A stretch of DNA of 64,000 bases from Rhododendron vialii (Eukaryota; Streptophyta; Magnoliopsida; Ericales; Ericaceae): contig NC_080559.1 in NCBI RefSeq assembly GCF_030253575.1, forward strand, positions 34,033,501 to 34,097,500, written 5' to 3'. Shown here piece after piece: positions 4,908 to 32,200 of this stretch. The notes under the pieces were generated by a model, which was given only the letters and a program-made list of their open reading frames with translations, searched no databases and was not told the DNA's origin. Made by a program: the position numbers and the translations under genes. Within the stretch, counting starts at the first letter, position 1; the number at the start of each line of letters is the position of its first letter.

Positions 4908-6110
4908 TCAAACAGGGGTCAAGCTTTCGATGAATCGATAAGTGCAGAGATATGAATTGTAATACGATTGATAAGAGCCACACTGCAAATCAAGAAGCAC
5001 CTTCACTGACTTCAAATTCAGATTATAAGCCATCACTTTTCCAGCAGTAGCTAACACGAGCACAAGATCCTTTCCGTTTGATCCATTTGCACAACAAAGT
5101 ACATTAAATTCCCGAGAATATCCTTGATGGTATACAGAATATATGGGCATCATGTTTACCCGGTACTTCACAATCCAACGACAGCAGTCTTTTTCCATCT
5201 CAAGGATTCTGAATCTCAAAAAAATGTACTCACGAGTCTGAATAAGAAGCAAACTGCCACCACATTCTCCAAAAAACCGAGTCTTCTCTTCTGCAAGAAT
5301 GTTAGGTACTTTAGGCATAACGGTTCCCGTCAGATTCTCGGTATCAACATCGAACCGAATATGAACATTGTCGTGATTCATCCAATGAATTGCTCCGTTC
5401 CAAAAGACCCTGCGATAATAGGAACCACCATCGGGTGCTTTTGCATGGATTTCTTTCCAAGACGCAGACTTGGAAGAGTAGATATGAATTCGATAATAGG
5501 CAGATCTTTCTTTATCGCTAGAACAGTGGGCTATCAATAGAACTTTGTAGTAAGGCGATTTTAAAGGATCAAAAGCCAAGTAAGCACCGAATTCTCCACC
5601 AACATATCTATATGTAGTGCTGCGACCAGGTTCGGGAAGTGCAATATGTTTCTGGGTGGTCGGATTGCAGACAATATAATCCACTCCTCTCCCATTTGAG
5701 AACAACATCAAACCATTGCAAGAGTCCACAACCCTAGACTCCGATCCTTTCCGAACGGGATCAAGGAAGGCAAGTGTGGGAAGGCTTAGGTGGCCATGAA
5801 GTGAGACAGAATTTAGTTCCGAAGGTTTGTGATAGAAGTATATGCCTGAGATCAAGGAGGAACTGGGATTTCGCCGGGAGTGGTTGGAGGCAAACTTTGA
5901 GTCAGTGATGAGAGACTGCCAATGCTTAGATACACACTTGAAGTTAAGGAGTGGCTTCACAGGCACAAGGAAAAGGATCTCTGTTAGGAGATCTTCATTG
6001 CTGACAACTACTTCTAGTGCCCGTGAATGCTCAGACGATGTACAAGAGATATCTACCTTCCTTCTTTTGCTGGTTAATTTCTTGTCTGTCTTTGCCTGTT
6101 CATAACCCAC
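4908..6110 (-). CDS. F-box/FBA protein, copy 2 (ancestral ATG lost)
   Basis: Intronless 400-codon frame of the same family as copy 1. The F-box reads NEDLLTEILFLVPVKPLLNF then VSKHWQSLI, after a basic SKRRK stretch. FBA-type motifs follow (SCNGLMLF, VCNPTTQKH, GAYLAFDPLKSPYYKV, VFWNGAIHWM, FFGECGGSLLLI). The predicted role is a substrate adaptor of an SCF ubiquitin ligase. The longest frame opens at GTG (6108-6110). The codon just upstream, where copy 3 has ATG, is ATC (6111-6113), and reading further upstream meets a stop without any ATG. An ATG at about 6140 exists but is one base out of frame. The body is otherwise full length and undamaged, so either the loss is recent or translation begins at a non-AUG codon. 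Confidence 0.75.
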   Translation of the reverse strand: MGYEQAKTDKKLTSKRRKVDISCTSSEHSRALEVVVSNEDLLTEILFLVPVKPLLNFKCVSKHWQSLITDSKFASNHSRRNPSSSLISGIYFYHKPSELNSVSLHGHLSLPTLAFLDPVRKGSESRVVDSCNGLMLFSNGRGVDYIVCNPTTQKHIALPEPGRSTTYRYVGGEFGAYLAFDPLKSPYYKVLLIAHCSSDKERSAYYRIHIYSSKSASWKEIHAKAPDGGSYYRRVFWNGAIHWMNHDNVHIRFDVDTENLTGTVMPKVPNILAEEKTRFFGECGGSLLLIQTREYIFLRFRILEMEKDCCRWIVKYRVNMMPIYSVYHQGYSREFNVLCCANGSNGKDLVLVLATAGKVMAYNLNLKSVKVLLDLQCGSYQSYYNSYLCTYRFIESLTPV

Positions 6111-6113
6111 GAT

Positions 6114-6659
6114 AAGATCAGTGAGAGAATGTGCAGATACATGGTTACAGAGAAATGATGTATCTTAATTGCAATAGCTTTTCAATCCTCCTAAAGAACG
6201 GCACCACTTGCTCTCTTTACTTGCTAAAACCCATGAAGTCTCATATTTTTCTTACTTTCTTCCCTTGCACTTTGTTGCTTTTAACGACATAAGAGGTGCA
6301 ACCTGAAAAAGCCTCCTAGGAATGTGAAAACTTGGTTCAGTCTGTTTAAACGACAATTGGTCATGGAGTGGCACTGATGGTAAAGGTAAATTTGATGCTT
6401 TAACCACCCTATTCCACTGAAACAGCACATATGGCCATGGGCAGATGGGGGTCGTCGGTGTTGGTGACGGGTCACTGTAGGCGAGTGGGAAGCTCACCCT
6501 GCCCGAGCCACCAGGTGGCCAGCATGATAGGCATCCTGAGTTATTCCACTTGCAGTTGCGAAAACCCCCCACTTAAGGCCTACATTCAACCGCTGTATGA
6601 AACTTATCTGGATTGTGTGTTTGGGCAACTAGATAATCCATAAAGTGCAACTTGTGAAC
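6114..6659. other. Block 2 spacer, cut by LINE insertion
   Basis: Matches the spacers at 16208-16915 and 27240-27480, for example ACTTGGTTCAGTCTGTTTAA and GGTAAATTTGATGCTT. The match to block 3 breaks at CTTGTGAAC (6651-6659). The continuation of the same spacer (CTCGTGAACAA...) is found, inverted, at about 13535-13524. This places the left edge of the LINE at about 6660. Confidence 0.7.
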
Positions 6660-6787
6660 CAAACACTTTTACACTTTTAAAGAAAAAGAAAACATGAAAG
6701 CTTCTCGCTCTAGAAAGTGGTGGCGATCTGGTGTCTCCTTCTCGTCGTCCTCTTGCTAGGGTTTTCTGCTCTTCTCCTTTGCTCGCA

Positions 6788-8366
6788 ATGGCTACTGTGG
6801 TCTCTAGTAATGAGTTTAATTCTGCTTTTCCTCCTTTAGGTTTGCATTGTACTACTTCTGCTTAAAAATTAGGGCTTTTGAAGCCAGTTGTTCTGACTTT
6901 GCTACAACAAGATTCCAATTCGTTGAGTAATGTCAATTTGATTGATGTTTTGGAGCTTTTTCTATCTCTAACAATGATCATCTTGAGGTCCAAGCAACTG
7001 ATTCTCCTACGGTAAAACAGATCAAAGATCTTTCGACAGAGGTGATGTCGTTCATAATGAACTTGACACCAAGAATAAGTTGCTTGATTCTTTGAAGGAT
7101 CAAGGCAATCAGTCAGTTGGTGGTCTACGTTTAGGAATGTCCTGGAAGGATAAGGTCTCTCCTCCTAGTGAAACTTGCCCCAGGATGAACTTGCAATTTT
7201 TTCCTCCTGAAGTGGAAGGGGAAACAGTTCGGGTCTCCCCCCCTAAACATGTTGAGCTTCAGGGCTCTGAGAAGTGGAGAGATTGCATAGTTGGGCATTT
7301 TGTTGATAGGAAACACCCTTTCAAGTCAGTTAGGTCAATTGCTTTCAATAATTAGCGTGACTATGGACTCAAGGATGTTCTAGCAAACGACAAGGGCTTC
7401 TTCTTCTTTGTGTTTGGAGTAGAAGGGGCTTATAGACAAATCTCTGAGATTGGTGGTTGGCATTTCGCTGGACGATCGATGGTACTACAAGAGTGGCATT
7501 CCAAGATGGATTATGAAAAGGAAGGGTACTACAAGAGTGGCATTCCAAGATGGATTATGAAAAGGAAGGGTTACATAAATTGCCTCTATGGATTCAACTT
7601 TATAATGTTCCCCTTCAGTATTGGACCAAAGCAGGTCTTAGTTATCTAGCCAGGGCTGTTGGGAAACCCCTATATGCTGATGCTATGACTAAATCGACTA
7701 GTCGAATTAGTTATGCGAAAATCTGTGTAGAAGTGGATGCTCAATCTCCCCTGCCTCACTCTATCGATCTTATTACTTCAATAGGAAGGATGGTTAAGGT
7801 TGGTGTTAAATATCTTTGGCCATTCAGAATGCAGTAAGCTAGTTAAACCTCCAATACAGTTGGAGGCTACTCGCAAAGCTTAGGATTCCATTCAGAATAA
7901 AGTTTGGGTTGTGAAAGGCAATAGGTCTGAGGGTGATCCTAATACTTTTCTTGACACTTCTGGAGATCGAGTTGCCCCTAAGGAGTCAGTGGTGAATGTT
8001 CCTTGTTCCAATCAATTTCTATCCTTGCAGACTGAAGACAATTTGATCGATGATGCTGCAGAAAGTGAGAAAGAGATGGTTAGTTCACCATGTGGGGATG
8101 AGAACAAACCTAACTCTCCTGCTTCTAGTGTTGTTGCTGCTGGAAATAATGCTACATCTTTAACCTTGCCGGAGCCTAGGCCTTGCATAAACCAAGAGGG
8201 ATCTGCAGCCTTTGATTTCTTACCTGATCTTGATGTGGGTTTACAGGATCCTGATGTTGTATTTCAAGCCTTATCTGTTTTGGAAGGAGAATCTTCAAAG
8301 AAGGTTTGTGAATGGGGAAACCTTGGAGTAGGGAAGAGACGCAAAAAAACAAAGCATAAATGGTAA
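6788..8366 (+). pseudogene. LINE ORF1 (gag-like, DUF4283), broken
   Basis: A start ATG at 6788 gives a short frame ending at TAA near 6863. The frame continues in pieces through 7080-7355, 7410-7649, 7550-7837 and 7911-8366. The middle piece carries the RNA-binding-like signature of plant LINE ORF1 (LPLWIQLYNVPLQYWTKAGL, then SRISYAKICVEV). A 44-bp tandem duplication at about 7489-7577 shifts the frame. No intact zinc knuckle was seen. The last codons overlap the ORF2 start in the arrangement ATGGTAA (8360-8366), a typical ORF1/ORF2 junction. Confidence 0.75.
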
Positions 8367-9610
8367 AGTTTGCTTCAAGGAATGTGAGGGGGTTGAATAA
8401 TCCCATTAAGCAAGCTGGAATTAGGAAATTTATCCTTGCTAATAGTTTATCTCTGTTAGGGATTGTTGAATCTAAAATTAAGAAAGAAAATATGGCTGGT
8501 GCTATGTTACACTGTCTTCCTTCTAATTGGGATTTTGTTCACAATGGGGATTTTGGTCCTGTTGCTAGAATTGTGGTGGCTTGGAATAAGCAGGGGTCAA
8601 TAGTGAGAAAGTTGTTTTCCTCAGACCAATTGATCCTTTTATCTGCTGAATTTGATATGAAGTCTTTTATCATCTCAGTTGTCTATGGTAGTAATCAAGC
8701 CAGTTCAAGGAGGCAGCTTTGGGATGATTTGAGACTCTGCTTTGGGTCTTTTGGGCATCAACCTTGGATTCTTGTTGGTGATTTCAATACTGTTAGAAGA
8801 CAAAGTGAAAAATCTGATCCCACTCACTTTGATGCAAATTCTGCTTTAGATTTTAACAATTGCTTAGAGGATGTCGAAATGGAAGATCGGAACTCTAAAG
8901 GCTTATGGTTCACCTGGTCAAACAAGTGAACTGGTCATGATCACTATAGTAGTAGATTGGACAGAGCTATTATCAACTCTCATGGGCAAAGCTTATTTAC
9001 TGAATCAGAGGCAGCTTTTCTTGTTCCAGGTATTTCTGATCACTGTCTAGTTGTTGTTTCTGTTCTCCCTTATCAAAGAGGGCACAAACCTTTTAAGTTC
9101 TTCAATTTTTGGATGTCTCATAAGGGATTTGCTCCTCTCCTCCTTCAATCATGGGAGCACTTAGTAGAAGAGTTCTTGTCTCCTATGTTGGTCCTTTACA
9201 AAAAATTGAGAAGACTTAAGCCTTGTTTGAGGACTTTCAATTTGGAGTTTTATGGTGATATTCAAAAGAAGGTTCTACTTGCTAGAGATGAGCTCCATTC
9301 TATCCAAACCCGTATTGCCAATTCTACTGGAGATCCTATTCCTTTGGCATATGAAAAATTCGGTCTGTTATCTCTCAATGAGCTTAGAACCGCAGAAGAA
9401 GCGCGGTGTAGACAAAAGTCAAGAGTTAAATGGCTTGAGTTGGGTGACAATAATATGAAGTTTTTCCATAAGAAAGTGGCTAGTCACAGAATGCGGAATA
9501 AAATTTTATCCATCTGTAAAGAGGATGGGACTAGACTGGATACTCTTGCTGAAGTCAAGTCTGAGATTTTGAGGTTTTATCACAAGATGCTGGGTACTAG
9601 ATTTGACTAG
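8360..9610 (+). pseudogene. LINE ORF2 N terminus: AP-like endonuclease, broken
   Basis: The frame opens at ATG 8360 and reads as an endonuclease/exonuclease/phosphatase domain: RNVRGLNNP near the start, GIVESKI, LVGDFNTVR at the catalytic Asp/Asn motif, and SDHCLVVV at the C-terminal catalytic Asp-His motif. A TGA at about 8927-8929 interrupts the domain, and the frame resumes directly to 9610, where TAG stops it. This enzyme nicks target DNA to prime reverse transcription. It is not functional as it stands. Confidence 0.85.
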
Positions 9611-11111
9611 AAACGGCAAGGGGAAAGGTTAATTTTTACTGACACTGTTCCTCCTGCCTTTCAGACTCAATTAGTTTCCCCTATAACACCTGAAGAAGTG
9701 AAAATGGCTTTATTCTCAATCAATGGTGATAAATCCCCTGGTCCTGATGGATTCAATGCTAGCTTCTTTCAAAAGAACTGGAGTTTGGTGGGCCAAGAGG
9801 TAACTGCTGCAATTCTTCATTTTTTTTCAATCTGGTTCTCCTTAAAGATGTTAACACTACTGCCCTTAATTTGATTCCGAAAACAAGCTACCCTCAAACT
9901 ATGAAGGAGTACGGGCCAATTGCATGTTGTAATGTCCTCTATAAGACCATTATAAAGGTATTGGCTAATAGACTTCAGCCTATCCTACCCCTTATCATCA
10001 ACAAAGCTCAGGCCGCCTTTATCAAAGGCAGGCCGCCTTTATCAAAGGTAGGTCCATCTCAGATAACATTTTGTTGATGCAAGAGTTAGTTAGGAATTAT
10101 CAAAGAGACAGTGATCCTCCTAGATGTGCTATCAAAATTGACCTGATGAACGCTTTTGATTCCGTGGACTGGGACTTTTTATTTGAAGTCGTGGTAGCCA
10201 TGGATTTTCCTACTCAGTTTATTATTTGGATCAAAACTTGTATTTCTTCTGCTATGTACTCTGTTGTCATTAATGGGGAGCTTGAAGGTTTCTTCAAAGG
10301 GGAAAAGGGCTTTAGACAGGGTGATCCTATATCTCCTTATCTCTTTCTGCTGGTCATGGAAGGTCTTTATGCTTTGTTGCAAAGGAATATTTCCCAAAGG
10401 CACTTCACCTATCATCCCAGATGCAAGGACCTTTCCATCTCCTTTCTAGCTTTTGCCGACGACCTCTTCCTTTTGTCTGGTGCTGACTGCCACTCCATTG
10501 AACTTATCAAGGATGTATTGGATGAATTCTACCACTCCTCAGGGTTGAAGCCAAATTTGCAGAAAAGTCAGATTTTCTTTTCAAGTGATAGTAATGAGAT
10601 GAAGGCTGCTATTCTCAGAAAACTCCCCATCCCAAAAGGCTCATTACCCGTGCGATATCTTGGAGTACCTCTCATCTCTATAAGTTTGAAGTATGAGGAT
10701 TGTATACAGCTTGAGGAAAAAACCCAACTAAGAATAGCAAGTTGGACAAATAGAACCCTCTCCTTTAGGGGCAGAGCTCTTCTGATCCAATCTGTTCTCT
10801 TCAGCATGCAAACTTACAGGTGCTCTTTGTTTATTCTCCCTCAGAAAGTTATTAAAGAAGTGGAAGCTTTACTCAGAGCATTTCTTTGGTTAGGGCTTAA
10901 TCTAAAGAAGGTTGGGGCTAAAGTGAACTGGATGGATGTTTGTACTCCGAAAGCAGAGGGTGGATTGGGTTTCAAATCTCTGAAAATGTGGAACAAAGCC
11001 TCCATGTTAAGGCACCTATGGGCTTTAAGCAAAAAGGAAGATACTTTATGGGTCCAATGGGTGCATAGCTATCAAACATCACAACATCTAGTAAATGCCT
11101 ATCCCCATTGA
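9611..11111 (+). pseudogene. LINE ORF2 reverse transcriptase, broken
   Basis: Reads as a non-LTR reverse transcriptase: [19 protein letters not shown] before 9800, then IKIDLMNAFDSVDW (motif A with catalytic Asp), FRQGDPISPYLFLLVMEGL (motif B) and FADDLFLLS (motif C, with the two catalytic Asp). Frameshifts near 9800-9870 and a roughly 20-bp tandem duplication at about 10010-10048 break it. It stops at 11111 and resumes in another frame. Motif C itself is intact. Confidence 0.85.
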
Positions 11112-11982
11112 ATGTTCTCGGACAATTAGGAAACTTATGAAGTTAAGAGATTTGGGTCAGCTCTTTGTTAAACACACTGTAGGCAATGGCAAGTCTACCT
11201 TCCTTTGGTTGGACAATTAGCACCCAAAAGGCCTTCTGTACAAACTCTTTGATGATAGAACTGTGTTCAGGCTTGGCTTATCCCTTTATGACAAAGTCAG
11301 TTCTGTAATTGAGCATGGTGTTTGGCATTGGCCTAGACCACGGAATAGGGTCATCCAGCAGATCCAATCCTCCACCCCTGCCTCTCTTCTTCCTATTGGG
11401 GACAGTAAAGATGTGGTCACTTGGACTTGCTCCCCTTCAGGTAGCTATTCAACTAAACATACTTGGGAAGCTATCAGAAACAAGAATCCTAAGGTAACCT
11501 TGTCTCCTCTTGTTTGGTTTTCTCAAAATGTCCCTAAATGGGCTTTTATCTTGTGGATTGCCTGCCTTCACAAGCTCCCCAGCAGAGATAGACTAATCCG
11601 ATGGGGTATGCCTATTGACCTTCATTGTATCTTATGCTTGCAACATGATGAAACTGCCAATCACCTTTTCTTTGAATGCTCCTACTCTGGTCAGATTTGG
11701 CAGTCTATATTGACCAAGTTTCAAACTATTAGAAGTTCAGGGAACTTTGATATGGAACTGGATTGGATATTGGCTCACTGCAAAAGTAAATCATTTCGAG
11801 CTCTTCTTATCAAGCTGTCCTTTGCTACAGCAGTGTACCACATTTGGCTTAAGAGAAATTCTAGGGTATTTGGTGGAAGACTGCGGAGCTCTGAAGTGGT
11901 TTTTGCTTGCTTAGAGGAAAATTTGAGGCTTCGAGTTTCTACCTGGAAACATTTTCGAAACTCAGTGGAAAATGCAAGGTAA
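11112..11982 (+). pseudogene. LINE ORF2 C terminus with zf-RVT domain
   Basis: After several stops (11111, about 11217) the frame resumes and ends at 11982. It contains the zinc-binding RT-associated domain: WFSQNVPKWAFILWIACLHK then CILCLQHDETANHLFFECSY, with Cys, His and Cys spaced as in zf-RVT. No RNase H domain follows, unlike the other LINE fragment at 24.7 kb, so the two belong to different lineages. Confidence 0.75.
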
Positions 11983-12159
11983 TGTCAACTTTGGAACCTT
12001 CCTAGTAGAATTCTGCGAACTCCCCCTCATTAGAGTTTTGATTCTTTCCTGCAGATAGTTGTAGGCTTCCCATGTATTGGTTTACCTTTGTTTTTGGGTT
12101 TTCCCACTGGTTTTCTTGGTTGTTGGCTATAAAATGCATCAATTACCACAAAAAAAAAA

Positions 12160-12561
12160 CGAAAAATCTATGAGTACCGACCATTGGGGGAGAGAAAACG
12201 TACCGACGGCCGCCGGCGGGCCGTCTCCGGCCACCGGACGGTCGATCCGAGCCGTTCAAAAATTCTAAAAAATAAAACCGAGGGGGTCAACGCGGGAATC
12301 AAGGGCATCCGAGGTGTTTAGGGTGCTTGATCAAAGCACCCTTTTTTCGTGTATATATGTACACATATATACACGAAAAAAGGGTGCTTTGATCAAGCAC
12401 CCTAAACACCTCGGATGCCCTTGATTCCCGCGTTGACCCCCTCGGTTTTATTTTTTAGAATTTTTGAACGGCTCGGATCGACCGTCCGGTGGCCGGAGAC
12501 GGCCCGCCGGCGGCCGTCGGTACGTTTTCCCTCCCCGTGGTCGGTACATATAGCAACACTC
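12160..12561. mobile_element. Palindromic MITE, copy 1 (Mutator-like, 9-bp TSD type)
   Basis: An almost perfect hairpin about 400 bp long. The arms run from GTACCGACC inward to a centre near 12355 (GTGTATATATGTACACATAT). Its ends are CGAAAAATCTATGAG and GAGTGTTGCTATATG. The left flank is nine A (12151-12159) and the right flank is CACAATTAT (12562-12570), so this copy has no matching target duplication. Each flank instead matches one flank of copy 2. No coding capacity. Confidence 0.9.
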
Positions 12562-12725
12562 CACAATTATCACGTACACGGACGTGGCCCCACTCTCTCT
12601 CCCTCACTCCTCTTGTTCTTGGTACAAAAAAGTGGCGGGTAATTTTCGAAAATTTGGGGATTTTGAAAACTCAGACGTTTATCAGCTCAGTAATCAGCTT
12701 CCAGTGTTCCACCACACGTTTTCCC

Positions 12726-12730
<5 letters not shown>

Positions 12731-12750
<20 letters not shown>
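12731..12750 (+). repeat. (CT)n tract in the leader of the MAKPSKSKN exon
   Basis: A CT microsatellite about 220 bp upstream of ATG 12971, followed by a second CTCTC run. This resembles the pyrimidine-rich 5' leaders of plant genes, so this copy may still carry its original 5' untranslated region. Confidence 0.7.
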
Positions 12751-12756
<6 letters not shown>

Positions 12757-12970
12757 GAAGTTTGTTTCTCTCTCTCCCGACTGCTTCTCATCTTCACCAC
12801 CACTACCGACGCCCACCCCCACGTCACCGACGCCGGTCCGACGAAGCCATTGCCGCCAGTCTCTCGCCGAGTCGCTGTCCCACCGTCGCCGCCCGTCTCC
12901 CACGGACCCGCCCTCGGTCTCTCGCCGTCCAACACATCTTTATTCGAAGGGCTCAGACTCTCCAAATCCC

Positions 12971-13135
12971 ATGGCGAAACCCTCGAAATCGAAGAACCCA
13001 ATGGAGGATAATGCTTCATACAAGTCCTTTAGTTCGTCACAGGAAGATGATGAGGTGCTCGACCTCAATGCGGGTTCCCACCTCGATGCCGTCGAAAAGT
13101 CGCCGTTGACGGACAATGGCGCCGGTGACAAGGAG
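12971..13135 (+). pseudogene. MAKPSKSKN exon 1, block 2 copy (inverted)
   Basis: The longest copy: 55 codons from ATG 12971 to a phase-0 donor GAG|GTAAGC at 13135/13136. It starts MAKPSKSKNPMEDN and continues with Ser/Asp/Glu-rich sequence to GAGDKE. It has a CT-rich leader upstream, so it could be a first exon of a real gene, but the inversion has cut it off from any original downstream exon. It lies on the plus strand only because of the MITE inversion. The function is not recognised; the basic-then-acidic composition suggests a nuclear protein (inference). Confidence 0.6.
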
Positions 13136-13535
13136 GTAAGCTTTTATTTTTTTACCTTGAGAAGAGGTAATCTAAGACATCACTTTCTATACACAAATGT
13201 AATCACAACTTCCTAAATAGGTTCTCCATTTGATTTTTTTTGCCTTTTCTTTTTCCGTAATCATCGGTTTATTGGAACACTAAAATGAGTCTATGTTTAA
13301 TTCTTTTTGGTTGATCTCCTCAAATTTATAGTGCAATAAGGGGTTTATCGACCTGATATCCCGGTGTATGTATAGCCCACTTAACTGGTAGTAATTGGTA
13401 AGATTGTTTGTCAAGCGTTATTTGCCATTGTTCCATTCAAACATCGGACACGCAGCCTGTTATCCTATTCTATATTTAATCAGGCAATCCAATCATGGCA
13501 AGCCTCTATGTTGTGCTATTTCAATTGTTCACGAG
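13136..13535 (+). other. Intron-like remnant downstream of the block 2 exon
   Basis: No exon is supported. The first 80 bp match the corresponding post-donor sequence of blocks 1 and 4 (for example GTAATCACAACTTCC), and the far end matches the block 3 spacer in reverse complement. Confidence 0.55.
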
Positions 13536-13544
13536 TTTTTTTTT

Positions 13545-13950
13545 GAGTGTTGCTATATGTACCGACCACGGGGAGGGAAAACGTACCGACGGCCGCCGGC
13601 GGGCCGTCTCCGGCCACCGGACGGTCGATCCGAGCCGTTCAAAAATTCTAAAAAATAAAACCGAGGGGGTCAACGCGGGAATCAAGGGCATCCGAGGTGT
13701 TTAGGGTGCTTGATCAAAGCACCCTTTTTTCGTGTATATATGTGTGTGTACATATATACACGAAAAAAGGGTGCTTTGATCAAGCACCCTAAACACCTCG
13801 GATGCCCTTGATTCCCGCGTTGACCCCCTCGGTTTTATTTTTTAGAATTTTTGAACGGCTCGGATCGGCCGTCCGGTGGCCGGAGACGGCCCGCCGGCGG
13901 CCGTCGGTACGTTTTCTCTCCCCCAATGGTCGGTACTCATAGATTTTTCG
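13545..13950. mobile_element. Palindromic MITE, copy 2, opposite orientation to copy 1
   Basis: Nearly identical to copy 1 but reverse-complemented: it starts GAGTGTTGCTATATG and ends CTCATAGATTTTTCG. Flanks are nine T (13536-13544) and ATAATTGTG (13951-13959), again mismatched within the copy but complementary to the flanks of copy 1. The hairpin centre lies near 13745. Confidence 0.9.
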
Positions 13951-14996
13951 ATAATTGTGCTTTAACTAACGACCCGCTTTTTTTTTCTCTTTTTAATACT
14001 CCTCAATTCAGGTGGCTGGCCAGCATAATCTCGACTATAATTCCATGAATCAATTTCACAATCTATTAGTGAAGGGCTTAATTAAAGCTAGAGCAAAACT
14101 TCATTCAATTTAATCCCACAGGAAGTTGAGAGCTTCAAACTTGAGATTTTAAGAATATTAACTTTACCAACATAAATTCTTCACAGATTGAACATGTTAA
14201 GCTATATTTGGTAAAGTTGTCAATTTTTTATTTTTTTGTTTATAATAAAGAAGAAATGAGTTTTTGTTTATTTATAAGAGAAACTAAAGACATCCATTCT
14301 TTAGTAAAAGAAGCAACCCTAAAGGAGGTGCAGGCCCAAAATGGCCCTACCTCGGAGCAACTCTTCGTTTTCCATTGAAAAGAATGGGAAAAAAATGACG
14401 ACAAAAAGAGAGAGGGTAATAATTTTAACACTCTCTTTTTTGTTAAATAAAGTATTTTCCTTGTCTTTTAGGGAAAAAAATTACACATAAAAAATTCCAC
14501 TACAAGACAAGAAATGGAGTACATTTATAAAATAATAATAATAAATAAAATTGAGTGCAAAAAAAGAAAAAGAAAACATTACAAGAACACCACGCACCAG
14601 ATCCATTCCATTTCTATTTCGTTACATTTTTTCAAAACTCCTTCAAGCATTTAAAACCAATTCTCCATATTATGTCATCAAAAGCAGATCAAAACCATAA
14701 ACCAAGCAATTACCCAGACGATACTTCAGTAGTTTTGCTTTAAAGAAACATCTCACAAGTCACAAAAGCATTCTGCGAACCAGAAGAGTGAAATAGAAGA
14801 ACTCTGCGAACTTATGCAAAATGATGAGAGCTTCCTCACCCAAAAGATTACGGCAATATTAACCGAAAATGTACAACAAACACCAACTACCATTTGAGCA
14901 ATAAAAATGAATGTATTACCATCAAAAGCGAAAAAAACACTAGTATTAAAGATTGGGCACAATGAAGGCACAGGTGCTCCAACACGTAGTCAATGC
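13951..14996. other. Gene-free interval between blocks 2 and 3
   Basis: No gene is supported. From about 14270 the sequence resembles the 3' flank of block 1 (GAGAAACTA...GACATCCA, CCAAAATGG). Poly-A, poly-T and AAT runs are common. Confidence 0.55.
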
Positions 14997-16207
14997 TCAA
15001 AGAGGGAATAAGCTTTCAATGAATTGATAAGCATTACGATACCAATACCCAGGAGGCGGATGAGGGTCACCCTGCAAATCAAGAAGCACCATCATCGTCT
15101 TGCAATTCGGATTATACGCAATAACTTTTCCTGGAAACATGAACAAGAGCGTGAAATCTTTTTCATTTGCTCCATTTACACAAGTCAGCACCCTATATAC
15201 AAGGTGGTATATCCTTCAGGGAATGCATTACATATGGGTCTCAGATTCACCTTGCACTTTACAATCCAACGATAGCAGTCCTTTTTCATCTCAAGGATTC
15301 TGAATCCCATAGCAGAGTCCTCACGGGACTGAATAAGTAGCAAACTGCCACCACATTCTCCAAAATACTGAATCTTATCTTCCTTAAGGATGTTAGGAAC
15401 TTTAGGCATTGGGGTTCCGGTAAGATTCTCTGCATCAATGTCGAACCGGATGTGAATATAGGTGGAATTCATCCAATGAATTGCTCCGTTCCAAAAGACC
15501 CTGCGCTGATAGGAGCCACCGCCAAGGGGTGCTATTGCACGCATTTCTTTCCAAGATGCAGTCTTTGAAGAGTATATATAAATTAGATAAAAGCTAGATC
15601 TTTCTTCAAAAGAAAAATGGTAACTTATTAATACAACTTTGTAGTAAGGCGATTTTGAAGGATCAAAAGCCAAGCAAGCACCGAATTGTTCCCAAAATCC
15701 AGATGACGTGCTGCCACCATGTTGGGGAAGTGCAATATATCTCTGGGTGGTTGGATTACAAACAAAATAATCAAGTTTGTCACCATTAGAGAACAATAGT
15801 AAACCATTGCAAGAGTCCACAACCTTAGACTTCGTTCCTTTCCGAACGGGATCAAGGAAGGCAAGAGTGGGAAGACCTTGGTGGCCATGGAGCGAGACAG
15901 ACTTGCGTTCTTTGTTAATCCAACGATAGAAGTAGAGGCCTGAGATCAAGAGGGAAGTGGGATTTCGACAGGTGTGGTTGGAGCCAAACTGCGGTTGGGA
16001 GATGAGAGAGTGCCAATGCTTAGATACAGACTTGAATTTGAGGAGTGGCTTCGCCGGCACAAGGAAAAGGATCTCTGTTAGGAGATCTTCATTGCTGACA
16101 ACTACTTCTACTGCCCGTGAGTGGTCTGATGATGTACAAGAAGTATCTACTTTTCTTCTTTTGCTTGTTACTTTCTTGCCCGTCCTTCCCTGTTCATAAC
16201 CCACCAT
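14997..16207 (-). pseudogene. F-box/FBA protein, copy 3 (ATG kept, frameshifted)
   Basis: The only copy that keeps the ancestral ATG (16205-16207; MVGYEQ). The F-box reads NEDLLTEILFLVPAKPLLKF then VSKHWHSLI. FBA-type motifs are present through RPICNAFPEGY. Near 15190-15215 two extra bases relative to copy 1 shift the frame, so the first frame ends at about 15185 after 340 codons. The rest (LTCVNGANEKDFTLLF through NAYQFIESL) continues in another frame to TGA at 14997. As it stands the protein would lose its last 60 or so residues. An F-box protein shortened this way might still bind SKP1, so a truncated but expressed gene is an alternative reading. Confidence 0.75.
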
Positions 16208-17052
16208 AAGACCAGAGAGAGAATCTGCAGAGGCAAGGTCACAGAGAAATGATGTATCTTAATTTCAATAGCTTTTTAATCCTCCTAAATAACGGGCCGA
16301 ATGGCACTACTAGCTTTCTTCAGTTTCTAAAGCCCATCAAGTCTCTTATTACTTCCTTTTTGTCCTAACAGGTGCACACTTGGCAATTTTGAACGACATA
16401 AGCAGTGCACTCTGAAAACAATCATGCTACAGACAAGCCTCTCAGCCACTCCTCTCAAGTAGTGGAGCCCGCAGATATGTGGAGCCCACTGCTTGTGAGA
16501 GAGGAGTGTCTGGGAAGTGGCCGAGAGACGTGTCCCCAGCATTTCCGGCCTCTTAGGAATCTGGAAACTAAACTTGGTTCGGTGTGCTGCTTAAATGTCA
16601 ATCGTTCACGGAGTGACACTAATGGTAAAGGTAAATTTGATACTTCAACTACCCTATTCCACTCAAACAGTATATATGGCAACGGGCAGGTGGGGGTCGC
16701 CGGTGTTGGTGGTGGTTGTGGGGTGGGTGGGTGGTGGCATGACAGGCTTCCTAATTATTCCACCAGTGAAAACCTCCCTTAAATCCTACATTCAACCACT
16801 GTATCTAATTTTCTATCGTGTTCCAAAAAGAAAAAAAAAACACACTGTATCTAACTTGTCTGGATTCTGTTATTGGGCAACTAGGAGTAATCCAAAATGA
16901 AACTCGTGAACAAGATAAATGGCACAACATAAAACCGTAAGGCCATAATTGGTTGGACGGATTAAACAGAGATTAGGATAGCAAGTCGATATTACGAAAA
17001 AAGGAGAAGGAAAAATCATCAAATGGATACATAAAGTGATTTCTAAAGTCAC
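16208..17052. other. Block 3 spacer, intact version
   Basis: The most complete F-box-to-exon spacer and the reference for the LINE and MITE insertions in block 2. It contains a GT/GGTGG-rich stretch at 16690-16740. No gene is supported, although several shadow frames exist. Confidence 0.6.
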
Positions 17053-17211
17053 CTCGTCGTTGTCCGTCGACGGCGACTTTTCTCCGGCTTCGAGGTCCGA
17101 ATCTGCATCGGGGTCGAGCACCTCGTCATTTTGCTCCGACGAATTTGAGGCCTTGTATTTGGCATCATCATCGTCCTCCAAGGGGTTCTTCGATTTCGAG
17201 GGTTTTGCCAT
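17053..17211 (-). pseudogene. MAKPSKSKN exon 1, block 3 copy
   Basis: A 53-codon piece from ATG 17211 to a donor GAG|GTGACT (17052-17051), phase 0. It starts MAKPSKSKNPLEDDDD, is rich in Asp, Glu and Ser, and has lost the AGDK residues before the final Glu that the block 2 and block 4 copies keep. No downstream exon was found. Confidence 0.6.
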
Positions 17212-17884
17212 GGGGTTCGAAGGGTTTGAGCCCTTTCAATACGGATTTGTCAGAGCATAGGCATAGAACAGTGAATAAATTTTTTACACCGACACGTGTT
17301 AAAACAGTAGGCATAAATAAGAAAATAAAAAATACTAACCTCAGCACGGTAGGCGATGATTAATATGTTTTTAGAAATGCTAGGTGCAAAGAAAATGAAT
17401 AAAGAAAATATTTTTAAAATGTACATGAACGATTTTAATATACTGCACAGTAAATCTGAACCGTTCATATACACTATAAGGATATTCTCTTTGTCAATTT
17501 TTTTTGTCCTTAACACTCCTCATGCAAAAATTGATAGAGGCATATGCAAAGTGTATAGAGATTCGGAAAATTGCATTAAAATATGTGAAAATTACATTGA
17601 AACTCCAATTTTTTGGGTGAAAATTTGGCACTCCCAACCATAATTCACATTTTCCTTTCAATTCATGTGTGTAAACACAACGAGACCCTCTTTTCGCACC
17701 CCTGACAACCCCCTCCTCCGGGTCCCACCACCTTTTCCCGCCCTGCCCCTCCGTTTTAGGTTTTTTTTTTTAGTTTCTTTTTAGTTTTACTTTTAAAAGA
17801 CTTTAATTACTTCTTCTTTTTTACTTTCACTATTCTTTTTACTAAGATTTTAATTACTGTTTTAATTTTTTTTACTTTAATTAT
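17212..17884. other. Gene-free AT-rich interval
   Basis: No coding sequence is supported. A small imperfect inverted pair (about 17260-17300 and 17350-17530, around AAAGAAAATATT and GTACATGAACGA) suggests MITE debris, but no clear ends were found. Confidence 0.45.
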
Positions 17885-18654
17885 TGTTCCAAATTTTAAT
17901 CCGTTTGAACCGGTTGAAAGATTTTAGTTTTCTGATCATTTTATCCTAAATGGTCATAATTAAATTTTAACTCTAGGGCTCTCGTTGATTAACCCTAAGA
18001 GATATTTGATTCTACAACTTTCTTAGGGCTATTCAATGAAAGTTCTAGATTCAAATTTTAATTAAGACCATTTAGGATAAAATGATCAGAAAACTAAAAT
18101 CTTTCCACATGTTCAAACGGATTGAAATTTGAAATACCTAATTTTTTAACCTCTTTAGACCGTTTATATATTAAAAAATATAGTTAAAAAATTAAGTGTT
18201 TCAAATTTCAATCCGTTTGAACCGATTCAAAGATTTTAATTTTCTGATCATTTTTATCCTAAATGATCATAATTAAATTTTGACTCTAGAACTCTCGATT
18301 GATTAGCTTTAAGAAAGTCGTAGAATCAAATATTTTTTAGGGCTAATCAACGAGAGCCCTAGAGTCAAAATTTAATTATGATCATTTAAGATAAAATTAT
18401 CAGAAAACTAAAATCTTTCCACTGGTTCAAACGGATTAAAATTTGGAACACTTAATTTTTTAACCATATTTTTTAATATATTTAATATATATAAACTGTC
18501 TAAATAGGTTAAAAAATTAAGTGTTCCAAATTTCATTCCGTTTGAACCCGTGGAAAGATTTTTGTTTTTTGATCATTTTATCCTAAATAGCCATAATTAA
18601 ATTTGATTTTAAGGCTCTCGTTGATTAGCTCTAAGAGATATTTGATTCTACGAT
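17885..18654. repeat. Tandem array of AT-rich foldback units
   Basis: The arm AATCCGTTTGAACCGG...TTTTCTGATCATTTTATCCTAAATGG...AATTAAATTTTAACTCTAG occurs forward at about 17885, 18205 and 18527 and in reverse complement at about 18034 and 18340. The units are therefore head-to-head palindromes with a period near 320 bp. The linkers (around TTTATATATTAAAAAATATA) are also self-complementary. No coding capacity is seen. The units could be tandemly arrayed MITEs. Confidence 0.85.
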
Positions 18655-18662
18655 TTTCTTAG

Positions 18663-19464: not shown

Positions 19465-19965
19465 GGGGCAACTTAGGTTCATACACGGGGCAATTTAAAT
19501 TCATACACAGGGCAACTTAGGTTCATACACGAGACAACTTAGAGGGCAACTTAGGTTCATACATTGGGTAATTTAGATTCATACGCGGGGCAACTTAGAT
19601 TGATACATGGGGCAATTTAGATTCATACACGGGGCAACTTAGAGGACAATTTAGGTTCATACATAGGGCAACTTAGGTTCATACATAGGGCAATTTAAAT
19701 TCATACATAGGGCAACTTAGAGGGCAACTTAAGCTTATACACGGGGCAATTTAGATTCATACACGAGGCAACTTAGAGGACAACTTAGGTTCATACACGG
19801 GGCAACGGGGCAACTTAGAAAGCAATTTAGGTTCATACACGGGGCAACTTAGATTCATACATGGGGCAATTTAGATTCATACACAGGGCAACTTAGAGAA
19901 CAACTTAGGATCATATACGGGGCAACTTAGATTCATACATGGGACAACTTAAATTAACACACCTT
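19465..19965. repeat. Minisatellite, about 22-bp unit (GGGGCAACTTAGRTTCATACAC)
   Basis: Some twenty imperfect copies of a unit combining GGGGCAACTTAG with TTCATACAC. Shortened units (GGGGCAACTTAGAGG) are interspersed, giving higher-order repeats of about 35-60 bp. Variation is mainly G/A and C/T at fixed places. No coding frame spans it. Confidence 0.9.
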
Positions 19966-20274
19966 GATACCTTAATACAAGGTGTATCTTATTTTCATAA
20001 CATCTTTGTGCCGGCTCAAACGGATTGAAAATTGAAACACTTATTTTTTAATATGTATATAGGAAAAAAAGGAGAAAAAAAAAACAGTCGGATTCATTAG
20101 AGGCAATACTTACACCTCATGCTTAGAGTGTTGATTCGTGTGCCAAAAATATTATTTCTGGAAGCTATAAAAGGTGGACTTTGTGTTTCAACTATATTTT
20201 TTAACTAAAAAATTGAAATACATAATTTTTAACTATATTTTTAATATATAAATGGTATAAAAAAAATGTTTCAA

Positions 20275-20525
20275 ATTTCAATCCGTTTGAATCGGTACAA
20301 AGATATTATTTTTCTGACCATTTCATCCTAAATGGTCGTAGTAAATTTTTGGCTTTAAGGCCTTTTGAACGAATACCTTAAGATTCTTTATTTAGTTTTA
20401 GAGTTCTCTTAGGGTGCACATTGAAAGGCCTTAGAGCGAAAAATTTATTACGACCATTTAGAATGAAATGATAAAAAAATAATATCTTTGCACTGGTTCA
20501 AACAGATTGAAAATTGAAACACTTA
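20275..20525. repeat. Isolated foldback unit of the 17.9-kb family
   Basis: A forward arm (AATCCGTTTGAATCGG through CATCCTAAATGGTCGTA, about 20280-20345) and its reverse complement (about 20447-20515) surround an unrelated loop. This is the same family as the array at 17885 but diverged, with the arms about 80 bp apart. Confidence 0.75.
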
Positions 20526-21048
20526 TTTTTGTAACTATATTTTTTAATCTGTAAAGGACAAAAAAGAAAAAAAACAGTCGGATAGAAAGCGAGAAAAGAA
20601 AATAAAGAGAAAAAAAGAAAAGAAAAGAAGAATATTCAAACTGGAAAGAAAGAAAAGGAATTAAAGAGAAAAAAAAATAATTTAACAATCAAACTGGAAA
20701 GATAGGAAGGGGGTTAAATGTGGAAATGGGGTTGTGGTGTCGGGGTGGGTCAGGGAAAAAAACACAAAGTAAGAACTTAATTTTTAGGGTTTCAAATATG
20801 TATTGGGTATATTAGTCCTTTTACATAGCATTTTTCATGCATTGAGAATTACTTTTCTCCTTTTCATATTTAGATGAATTTTCAAAAAAGTGGTCTATGA
20901 GTTGGGCATTTTTTACCTCTCTCCCCACTGAAATGTAATTCTCCCTTGTTTATACTCCTTTCGTTCCAGAATTTTAGTTCCGTTGGGGAATTTCTAACTT
21001 TTTAAGAGAATACACATTTAGCATAAAAAAAAAAACACACACACACAT
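20526..21048. other. Gene-free purine-rich interval
   Basis: An A/G-rich stretch (20560-20680) of AAAGAAAAG-like sequence, then AT-rich DNA, ending in a short (CA)n run (21036-21047). No gene is supported. Confidence 0.5.
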
Positions 21049-21490: not shown

Positions 21491-21560
21491 GGTTTCGCCA
21501 TGGGTTTTGGAGGGTTTGAGACCTTTGAATACAGAGGTGTTTTGGATGTACGTGGAGTTA
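21491..21560 (-). pseudogene. Fifth MAKPSKSKN scrap (leader plus four codons)
   Basis: On the minus strand the sequence around ATG 21501 reads ATGGCGAAACC, coding MAKP, and upstream it keeps the leader seen in block 3 (CAAACCCTCCAAAACC and CTTTGAATACAG in plus orientation). Similarity ends right after the fourth codon, about 25 bp from MITE copy 3. Confidence 0.55.
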
Positions 21561-27215: not shown

Positions 27216-27504
27216 CCATTGGCCTTCCTTTTTATCTTAAGAGGTGCACAAGCTGTCGTTTTGAATGACATAAGAGCTGCATTCTCAAAAGAGCTTTTCA
27301 GAATCTGAAAACTTGGTTCAGTCTGTTTAAACATCAATTGGTCATGAAGTGACACTAATTTTACGGGTAAATTTGATGCTTCAATCTCAGTACTGTTCCA
27401 CCGCGGGAACAGAATGTATGGCAACGGGCAGATGGGGTCGGTAGTGATGGTGAGTCACTGTAGGTTAGTCGGGAACTCACGTTGCCCGAACCGCTGGGTG
27501 CGCT

Positions 27505-29143: not shown

Positions 29144-29230
29144 ATGGCGAGCTCAGTCGAGAAGGACGCCCAAGACGAAGCTTTCTCCCTGGAACTCCCT
29201 GCTCCTCCTGGTTGGACCAAAAAGGTTTGT

Positions 29231-29265
<35 letters not shown>

Positions 29266-32200
29266 TGATATTTGTGCGCATAGTCGCAATTAGGTTAATT
29301 AAGCGAAGTCGTGGCGTTTTCAGTGCTACTAATTAGGTTTTGCTGGGGTTAATTTGGTTGGATTGTGTGGTTCTGTTGTTGAACTTGACTCAGTAGTGAT
29401 GGTTTTGAAGCTATCAGTAGTCGGCATGGTTTATTGTGTTGGTGAATTGCGCAGGGTTTGCTTCTTTAACGAAAATTCTTGAGAAAACAGAGATTGAATC
29501 ACTCTCGTTTTCTTCTTAGGGTTTCTTCAAGGGGTTTGTATTTGGTAGTGTCCTCTCTCGCTCTCGCGGATTTGGTTTGTATCGTATCCTTTTCCGCTGT
29601 CGCACTTTTGGTGGCCAAGAGATTAGAGAAGCTCCAATGTGATTTCCTCTGGAGTGGATGGGTGATGAAGCATTAGTATCATTTGGTGGGGTGGAAATCG
29701 TTAGATCTCCTTGGAAGAAAAGATATTTGGGGATTGGGAAAATGACTTTGGAATTTAGTGTACGAAACGGAGAGCTTTACAACGAGGGGGGCGGCAGCAA
29801 ATATGGCATGATATTTTTTCTTGGTTGGGTGGGTGGGCTCAAAGAACATAGCACTGTCTCATGATGTTTGTCAGTGGAAAGCTATTAGACGTGGTTGGGT
29901 TACTTTCTCACCCATTTTCAGCACATGCTTGGAAATGGAAATCGGGTGCTTTTTAGGAAGCACTTATGGGCTGGGGACAAGATCTTGGGGCTGCCTTCCC
30001 AGCTATTGCCAGTATTGCTAGTAAGATTGATGTAGCTACTAATAGTTGTCTCATGGTGAAAAATGTTTCGGTGGTGTGGGATGCTGAGCTAGGGAGGATG
30101 TTGAATGGAGGGGGCTTTCTGTGGAGAGAATTTAGAGTTATCAATGCCCCTCCAAAGTTAGGGCTCTTTACATGGACAGTGGCACACTGGTGTAACCTTT
30201 TTTTTTGAACAGCACACTGGTGTAACCTGACCATTGTTGATAATTTGTTTCAAAGAAGGCATACTCTCTTTGATTGTTTCTGTATGTGCTATGATGATAA
30301 TTACATGGTTGATCATCTTCTTCTTCATCTTGATGTAGCAAGGGAGTTGTGGTCCTTGATTTTCCTCTTGGTAGGTGTGGAGTGGGTGTTTTCTGGGAAG
30401 GTGATGAAGGTTCTAAACTTTTTGGAGGGGAGGTAAAGTGGGTTGTAGGGGAAGGAAAGTGTGGGGTTGGGCCCCAAAACAACAGAAAATTTTCGAGGGA
30501 AAGAAGTGCCTTATTTATTTATTTATTATTTTGGCTCATTGGCTGATTCTCCTTGAATCAGATTTTGTACTTTGACGAGGGTTTGGAGTAGCATTTCATG
30601 TATGGCTAGGATGAGGAGCTAACCTTTCCCTTCATTTGTTTACATTAACTTGTTACTACTTGGGGACCATAGTACTTGGATTTTGCTTTTTCTTATGGTT
30701 GACGCGATAGTTTGGAGTGACGCGGTTATAACAGATGGTAGAACTAAGGGGAGGGGTACATCAAAATTGACTTTAGAGGCTGTAGTCGGAAAGAATTTTG
30801 GATTTTGTTTATCATGGAATAGGATGCCCTTGACAGAGCTCAATGGAGAAAACGGATCTATGTAGCCGTCCCAATTGATTGGGAGTTAAGGCTTGGTTTG
30901 GTTTAGTCAATGTGTTAGTTGAATCTTTATGAGTTTATTAGAGACAAGAATCAAACAGATTCAGAGAATAGCCCTGGCAAGAATACCAAGGTATCTGCAA
31001 ACGGAATTTAGCTTCCAAAGTATCTGAAAGAGCTATAAGCCTATAACTTTACATGATTCGACAACAAAGGATCGATGCCATTCACTAGCTGATGGCAATT
31101 AGCTATAAAGACATTTAATATTGGCTTGAAATGAAGTCCTTTAAATATATGTACTAGCTGTTGCAGAGGGGACGACAAAGACCCACATTTTTTGGTTGCT
31201 GTCATTTTGCAGTAAAAAGAATGGGGATTTTTCTTGTACCGGAAGATGTCACTAACTAAACAAGAAGCAAGAAGAAAATTTGCTTAGTTTCCCACCACCT
31301 GAATCGATGTTGCCCAGAAGTTTTCTGGGGTAAGCATTTCAAGTTTAGCTGTTGGCCTTCACACTTTGTCTTCTTTTGATGAGTTAGCTGTTAGCCTACA
31401 CGTAAATAACCTTTATGTTGATACTCTAGCTTGAGTTGTGAAAATTGTCTTTTAAGATAATTCCATATGGAAAGAAAATGTGCAACTTGCTTTTTATCTG
31501 TTTTATAGATATTATAGACCTGACTTCTACTCTCAATGAGCTGTAGGCATTCTGTTTTGACGGAGATAGAAACTTGTAATCCACACTTACCTGATCATTT
31601 GTTCTGCTTCGCCTATTTGATTGCGGATTCTTGACATTCTTGTCGATCAATTTACATTGGAGAGGTTTGTTTAGGATAGATGCTCTATTGATATGGTTCT
31701 TAGAGTTTCAGAATAATGGACAAAAATGTCTCCTTCAGAGCCCTTGTTTATACTAAGAATATGATATATGTAGATTATAAATGTAACAAGCCTATCGTTT
31801 ACTTGACTTCTTAAAAAAGAAACTTGCAGTTTAAGAATTAGCATTTTTGTACTACTTTTTATGTTATTACACAGTTGCCATGTTGACATCAATTAGATAT
31901 GCTACAACTTATGGTAGACAAGAATGTTTTCTAAGATAAAACATAGGGTTAAATACCGAGACACCCCTCGAACTATTCTCGTTTGTTTCGCTCACCCCCT
32001 AATAGAATTTTGCCTACGGAGAGACCCTCTCATTAAAGTTTTATTGTCTCGTGCACCCCTTCCGTTAGGGTTCCATCTAGAACCGTTACTCTTTTCACCT
32101 AAATTCTGTCAAAAGTTGTATAATGTTCCAATATTACCCCTAATATTTTCCCCACTTTGGCCAAAAAAAAAATTACTCCATCTCTCAATTCCCCTCATCA

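Follow-up and report, generated by a model that had tools for sequence, protein, structure and literature searches.

In the 64-kb stretch of Rhododendron vialii DNA analysed here (hereafter the window), a 983-bp segment that carries the start of an F-box gene lies inverted between two MITE copies of opposite orientation, and the 9-bp target duplications of the two copies are exchanged. We suggest, with modest confidence, that the segment was inverted by homologous exchange between these two inverted Mutator-type MITE copies; the crossover itself we infer. The inversion has firmer support than the first-pass annotation of this DNA was aware of, because the inversion also splits the poly(A) tail of a LINE and separates the two copies of the LINE's putative target duplication.

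Two MITE copies in opposite orientation

Three copies of the MITE were located in the window:

12160..12561, plus strand: MITE copy 1, a palindrome with end type L on the left and end type R on the right
13545..13950, minus strand: MITE copy 2, the reverse complement of copy 1 at 98.8% identity
21058..21464, plus strand: MITE copy 3, which has its own perfect TTAATGCAC duplication and serves as a control

When aligned as reverse complements over 406 columns, copies 1 and 2 (402-406 bp in length) differ by one substitution and by one 4-bp indel in the loop. Copy 3 is about 88% identical to both of them over 346 columns. In the predicted hairpin of copy 1, 376 of the 402 nt are paired. The inverted-repeat arms of copies 1 and 2 extend over 174 nt at 99% identity and the outermost ends have diverged, so that an L-type end (CGAAAAATCTAT) and an R-type end (GAGTGTTGCTAT) can be told apart in each of these copies. 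Because the two end types differ, the orientation of the palindrome can be read. The order of the ends is L-R in copy 1 and R-L in copy 2, which means that the copies bound the segment in opposite orientation. The L and R termini differ at 11 of 28 sites in copies 1 and 2 and at 4 of 29 sites in copy 3. We considered whether the unequal ends might be a product of the exchange and rejected this explanation, since the ends of copy 3 are likewise of the L and R types and unequal, to a lesser degree. A 9-bp target duplication is seen directly at copy 3 and, after re-inversion of the segment, at copies 1 and 2. Judged by this duplication and by its long terminal inverted repeats, the element is a Mutator-type (MULE) MITE.

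An Rfam scan of the window gave 0 matches. An exact 23-bp pattern of the MITE had 0 matches in a collection of prokaryotic contigs and 0 in one of viral contigs, a result of little weight for a plant element. Other repeats are also found in the window. A 314-bp unit is present in 2.4 tandem copies at 17885-18662 and is itself palindromic (self-complementary stretches of about 82-87%), and a sequence related to this unit occurs at 20209-20574. An array of a 22-bp unit (GGGCAACTTAGGTTCATACAC-like) occupies 19465-19962, with other periods of 34, 42, 56, 78 and 100. To the right of MITE copy 3, 51 bp at 21491-21541 resemble the start codon of an F-box exon 1 and its 5' side (86% identity) and look like the remnant of a further copy of the F-box gene.

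Exchange of the target duplications

The flanks of copies 1 and 2 are as follows:

12150..12159, plus strand: run of ten A at the left of copy 1, nine of which (AAAAAAAAA) are the MITE target duplication
12562..12570, plus strand: CACAATTAT, right flank of copy 1, the complement of the right flank of copy 2
13536..13544, plus strand: nine T (TTTTTTTTT), left flank of copy 2, the complement of the left flank of copy 1
13951..13959, plus strand: ATAATTGTG, right flank of copy 2

The two flanks of the same copy agree at only 4 of 9 positions in copy 1 and at 4 of 9 in copy 2, which bears out the view of the first-pass annotation that neither copy has a matching duplication of its own. The same annotation had proposed that each flank is complementary to a flank of the other copy and that re-inversion would restore both duplications. 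This is what we found: the reverse-complement agreement between copies is 9 of 9 for the left flanks and 9 of 9 for the right flanks, and re-inverting 12562-13544 gives A9-MITE-A9 and ATAATTGTG-MITE-ATAATTGTG. The four 9-mers and the four MITE ends have all stayed intact. The element coordinates and flank sequences, as well as the perfect 9-bp duplication at copy 3, are as previously described, apart from the length of one run: the nine T are indeed nine, but the run reported as nine A contains ten.

We then considered how readily such a pattern could arise by accident, with unrelated flanks that happen to be complementary and an exon that separately came to lie on the other strand. The A/T flank pair alone is weak evidence because A9 and T9 are common, occurring 89 and 35 times, respectively, in the 64-kb window (overlapping occurrences counted), and this low-complexity pair is the one point in favour of chance. 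Against it, ATAATTGTG has a single occurrence in the 64 kb and so has CACAATTAT, in each case precisely at the junction. When two elements of the size of copies 1 and 2 were placed at random in 400,000 trials, a left-type match arose 8 times, a right-type match 6 times and both together 0 times. The paralogue and LINE evidence given below also argues against chance, and we regard this explanation as untenable in practice. A composite transposon, in which both MITEs carried the segment with them, was also rejected, as only 3 of 9 positions agree between the outer flanks, A9 and ATAATTGTG.

Comparison of the inverted segment with its paralogues

The window contains four F-box gene bodies of one family (blocks 1 to 4), all on the minus strand, and an F-box match above the Pfam cut-off was found in 4 of 4. 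The parts of block 2 that are relevant to the inversion are the following:

12562..13544, minus strand: the 983-bp inverted segment, which takes in the promoter side of F-box block 2, its exon 1 and the 5' portion of its intron 1
12971..13135, plus strand: predicted exon 1 of block 2, 55 codons in phase 0, with a start codon and the donor GTAAGC
4911..6095, minus strand: predicted exon 2 of block 2, open, with the F-box and a KIB1-4 beta-propeller; its first Met is residue 130

We compared the segment with the three paralogue regions by blastn (low-complexity filter on, E cut-off up to 0.01), reading the strand in the window as it stands, and 10 of 10 matches were on the minus strand. With the filter off, the CT-repeat of the segment also matched CT-repeats on the plus strand, including one at 29229-29275 inside a searched region; these matches were set aside as simple repeats. 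The match to block 3 lies at 16894-16983 (76% identity, 90 columns, E 3e-12) and recovers the collinearity of the re-inverted segment with the block 3 spacer that had been placed at 16898-16985. Blocks 1, 3 and 4 carry exon 1 on the minus strand and block 2 carries it on the plus strand, and the exon inside the segment is therefore the sole plus-strand one of the four, as had been noted. To the right of copy 2 the paralogues gave one weak match (E 2e-4), which is uninformative on the right breakpoint. As far as the assembled sequence goes, the inverted order and the left breakpoint are demonstrated, and the right breakpoint is marked by the target duplication only.

A LINE in intron 1 as an independent witness

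Additional evidence comes from a LINE in intron 1 of block 2 and from block 3:

6660..12159, plus strand: degenerate LINE in intron 1 of block 2, its ends placed by the block-3 alignment and the A-run
6649..6659, plus strand: AACTTGTGAAC, 5' copy of the putative LINE duplication and last intron bases of block 2 before the LINE; the block-3 alignment stops at 6659
13527..13537, minus strand: AACTCGTGAAC, 3' copy of the putative LINE duplication, overlapping the A/T run
16853..17250, minus strand: block-3 paralogue, with exon 1 and intron 1 but no LINE

The LINE is about 5.5 kb long and has Pfam matches to RVT_1 (E 7e-30) and zf-RVT (E 9e-25). It is decayed, with open pieces at 8360, 9972 and 11221 in three frames. 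The run of ten A at 12150-12159 probably represents its 3' poly(A) tail. Left of the LINE, block 2 can be aligned with block 3 as far as 6659, which corresponds to 16911 in block 3. The alignment of the re-inverted segment with block 3 begins directly after the A-run of the segment, at about 16901. The two matches overlap by 11 bases (AACTYGTGAAC), and we take this overlap, AACTTGTGAAC on one side and AACTCGTGAAC on the other, to be the LINE's target duplication, altered at one position. Given that the block-3 matches overlap in this way, the sequence now at 13535 must formerly have come after the poly(A) tail that now ends at 12159. Judged from these alignments, this is support for the left breakpoint that is independent of the MITE flanks. 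Elsewhere in the window, an open frame at 24252-25178 matches zf-RVT weakly (E 6e-4, below the curated cut-off) and is perhaps the 3' end of a second LINE.

Predicted effect on the block-2 gene

In our gene model, which is a prediction from sequence alone, exon 2 of block 2 begins at 6095 (minus strand) after TATGAACAG, in phase 0, and this acceptor motif was found in 4 of 4 blocks. We preferred TATGAACAG to another candidate acceptor, after TTTAG upstream of exon 2, because TATGAACAG keeps the phase of exon 1 and all four blocks have it. At the donor GAG/GTAA, blocks 1, 2 and 4 align with one another and block 3 does not. Exons 1 and 2 are both in phase 0, and they come to lie on the same strand only once the segment is re-inverted. 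Because exon 1 and its start codon are flipped and exon 2 has no Met before residue 130, that is, past the F-box, the inversion should behead an otherwise open gene. Under the predicted model, an ordinary transcript of the present order cannot splice the start codon to exon 2, and the function of the block-2 gene has presumably been lost.

The pairwise dN/dS values between the block-2 body and its three paralogues are 0.53-0.59. Since exon 2 is still open and has these values, either the inversion occurred recently, or the gene has another way of being read, or the order is an assembly error. In the last case, there would have been two normal MITE insertions, and the 983 bp between them would have been placed in the wrong orientation. 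An inverted repeat of 402-406 bp at 98.8% identity, with near-perfect hairpins, is compatible with such a flip, and the open exon 2 with its dN/dS values does not make a long-standing loss of exon 1 evident. However, a recent true inversion accounts for the open exon 2 equally well, and we consider an assembly flip improbable.

Other members of the family showed further features. The F-box frame of block 3 (15188-16258) ends early, at 357 aa as compared with 422, 418 and 404 in blocks 1, 2 and 4. The similarity at the DNA level nonetheless extends to 14582, and block 3 may be a pseudogene. In addition, stretches of the predicted intron 1 at 6311-6466, 16548-16711 and 27301-27500 (blocks 2, 3 and 4, respectively) are alike at about 73-82%, with only a 49-bp match in block 1; this shared stretch could be an unannotated exon, a regulatory element or an old repeat.

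Possible origins of the inversion

If the two MITEs recombined as residents of this locus, then the order of events would be as follows. A tandem duplication would first have produced the F-box genes, and a LINE would then have inserted into intron 1. A MITE would have landed in the poly(A) tail of the LINE, and a second MITE of the same subfamily would have inserted upstream of the gene at ATAATTGTG. Finally, a crossover within both MITEs would have exchanged their inner target duplications. Ectopic recombination between transposable elements is listed in a review as one origin of plant inversions (PMC7093584). According to Delprat et al. (2009, PMC2775673), it predicts opposite orientation of the copies, exchanged duplications and chimeric copies. 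In favour of exchange, our two copies are opposite in orientation, and both duplications are swapped with neither kept. Against it, there is no sign of chimerism; the arms of the two copies, four in all, differ at only 0-2 of 171 inner sites, and for this reason the discriminator is powerless here. The observed pattern is also predicted likewise, or better, by another mechanism, the insertion of a hybrid element.

In that mechanism, the L end of one MITE and the R end of its sister-chromatid twin insert together about 1 kb away. A single step then yields the inversion, the second MITE copy and the swapped 9-bp duplications, and the joins that we derived by hand reproduce exactly the observed order of ends and duplications. 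Such insertion acts from one site on sister chromatids or homologues, and its outcome is described as strikingly similar to that of ectopic recombination, save that the copies are identical (Delprat et al., PMC2775673). Hybrid-element insertion should neither delete nor duplicate sequence, and the locus agrees with this expectation except that its two copies fall just short of identity. Copies 1 and 2 are nearly identical (one substitution and one 4-bp indel) and differ by about 12% from copy 3, and this near identity leans towards hybrid-element insertion. However, members of young MITE subfamilies are frequently near identical, so identity is weak evidence for it; the same appearance would be expected after gene conversion, or if recombination had come after a recent burst of the family. 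Hybrid-element insertion also requires a transposase active across sister chromatids. We hold it to be rather unlikely.

It is also conceivable that the segment was excised at the inner MITE ends, by transposase or by breaks, and was rejoined in inverted orientation without loss. We would expect exchanged duplications with both MITEs left in place in this case as well. However, two footprint-free joins would be needed, all MITE ends and all four 9-mers being intact, and we consider this highly improbable.

Thus, the proposal of the first-pass annotation that two resident MITEs recombined is plausible and is the history that we favour, but a hybrid insertion or an assembly flip would look alike. 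Our confidences in recombination, hybrid-element insertion and an assembly flip are judgements and were not computed.

Comparison with known cases

The kind of event proposed here is already documented in flies and plants, and the present case is a small new member. The model case is the Galileo inversions of Drosophila buzzatii. One of them, 2z3 (Delprat et al. 2009, PMC2775673), likewise has two oppositely oriented transposon copies at its breakpoints, with long inverted repeats and exchanged target duplications. It differs in that the copies were shown to be chimeric and uninverted chromosomes were compared, and also in that Galileo is a P-superfamily element with 7-bp duplications and the inversion is a polymorphic chromosomal one. 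A 29.8-kb inversion with MITEs at both breakpoints was reported in Brassica napus (Wan et al. 2022, as described in the review PMC12595863). As in our case, two opposite MITEs affect an F-box gene in a plant; however, those are PIF/Harbinger MITEs of 327 bp, and the inversion, at about 30 kb, exchanged promoters and raised expression. The CitMule element of clementine (PMC4334395) is also Mutator-like and from a plant, and its unmatched 9-bp duplications likewise record a rearrangement, but it is a single 7-kb element associated with a 2-Mb deletion, and its authors proposed transposase-catalysed insertion between two target sites. In maize, the transposon ends of Ac/Ds also make inversions that alter gene expression (PMC8225341); these differ in involving Ac elements, 8-bp duplications and alternative transposition at the p1/p2 genes. 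A literature search for exchanged or chimeric target duplications together with MITE-mediated or Mutator-like inversion returned no match, from which we do not claim absence from print. What is unusual in the present case is that the tail of a LINE acts as an internal witness.

Implications

We also considered whether the inverted repeat of 400 bp at 98.8% identity might allow a recurrent and reversible flip that turns the F-box gene from intact to beheaded and back, which we regard as very improbable. If it were true, then the promoter in the beheaded state would read through the hairpin of copy 2, with arms of about 190 nt. Transcription would run toward the neighbouring F-box gene in antisense orientation, and small RNAs against that gene could result.

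Exchanged duplications alone are no proof of recombination. This inversion is compact, and a single sequence suffices to reconstruct the order of several events; what the swapped MITE duplications imply is confirmed by the LINE poly(A) tail that the inversion split. The case also suggests that small palindromic elements can sever the start of a gene without the loss of a single base.
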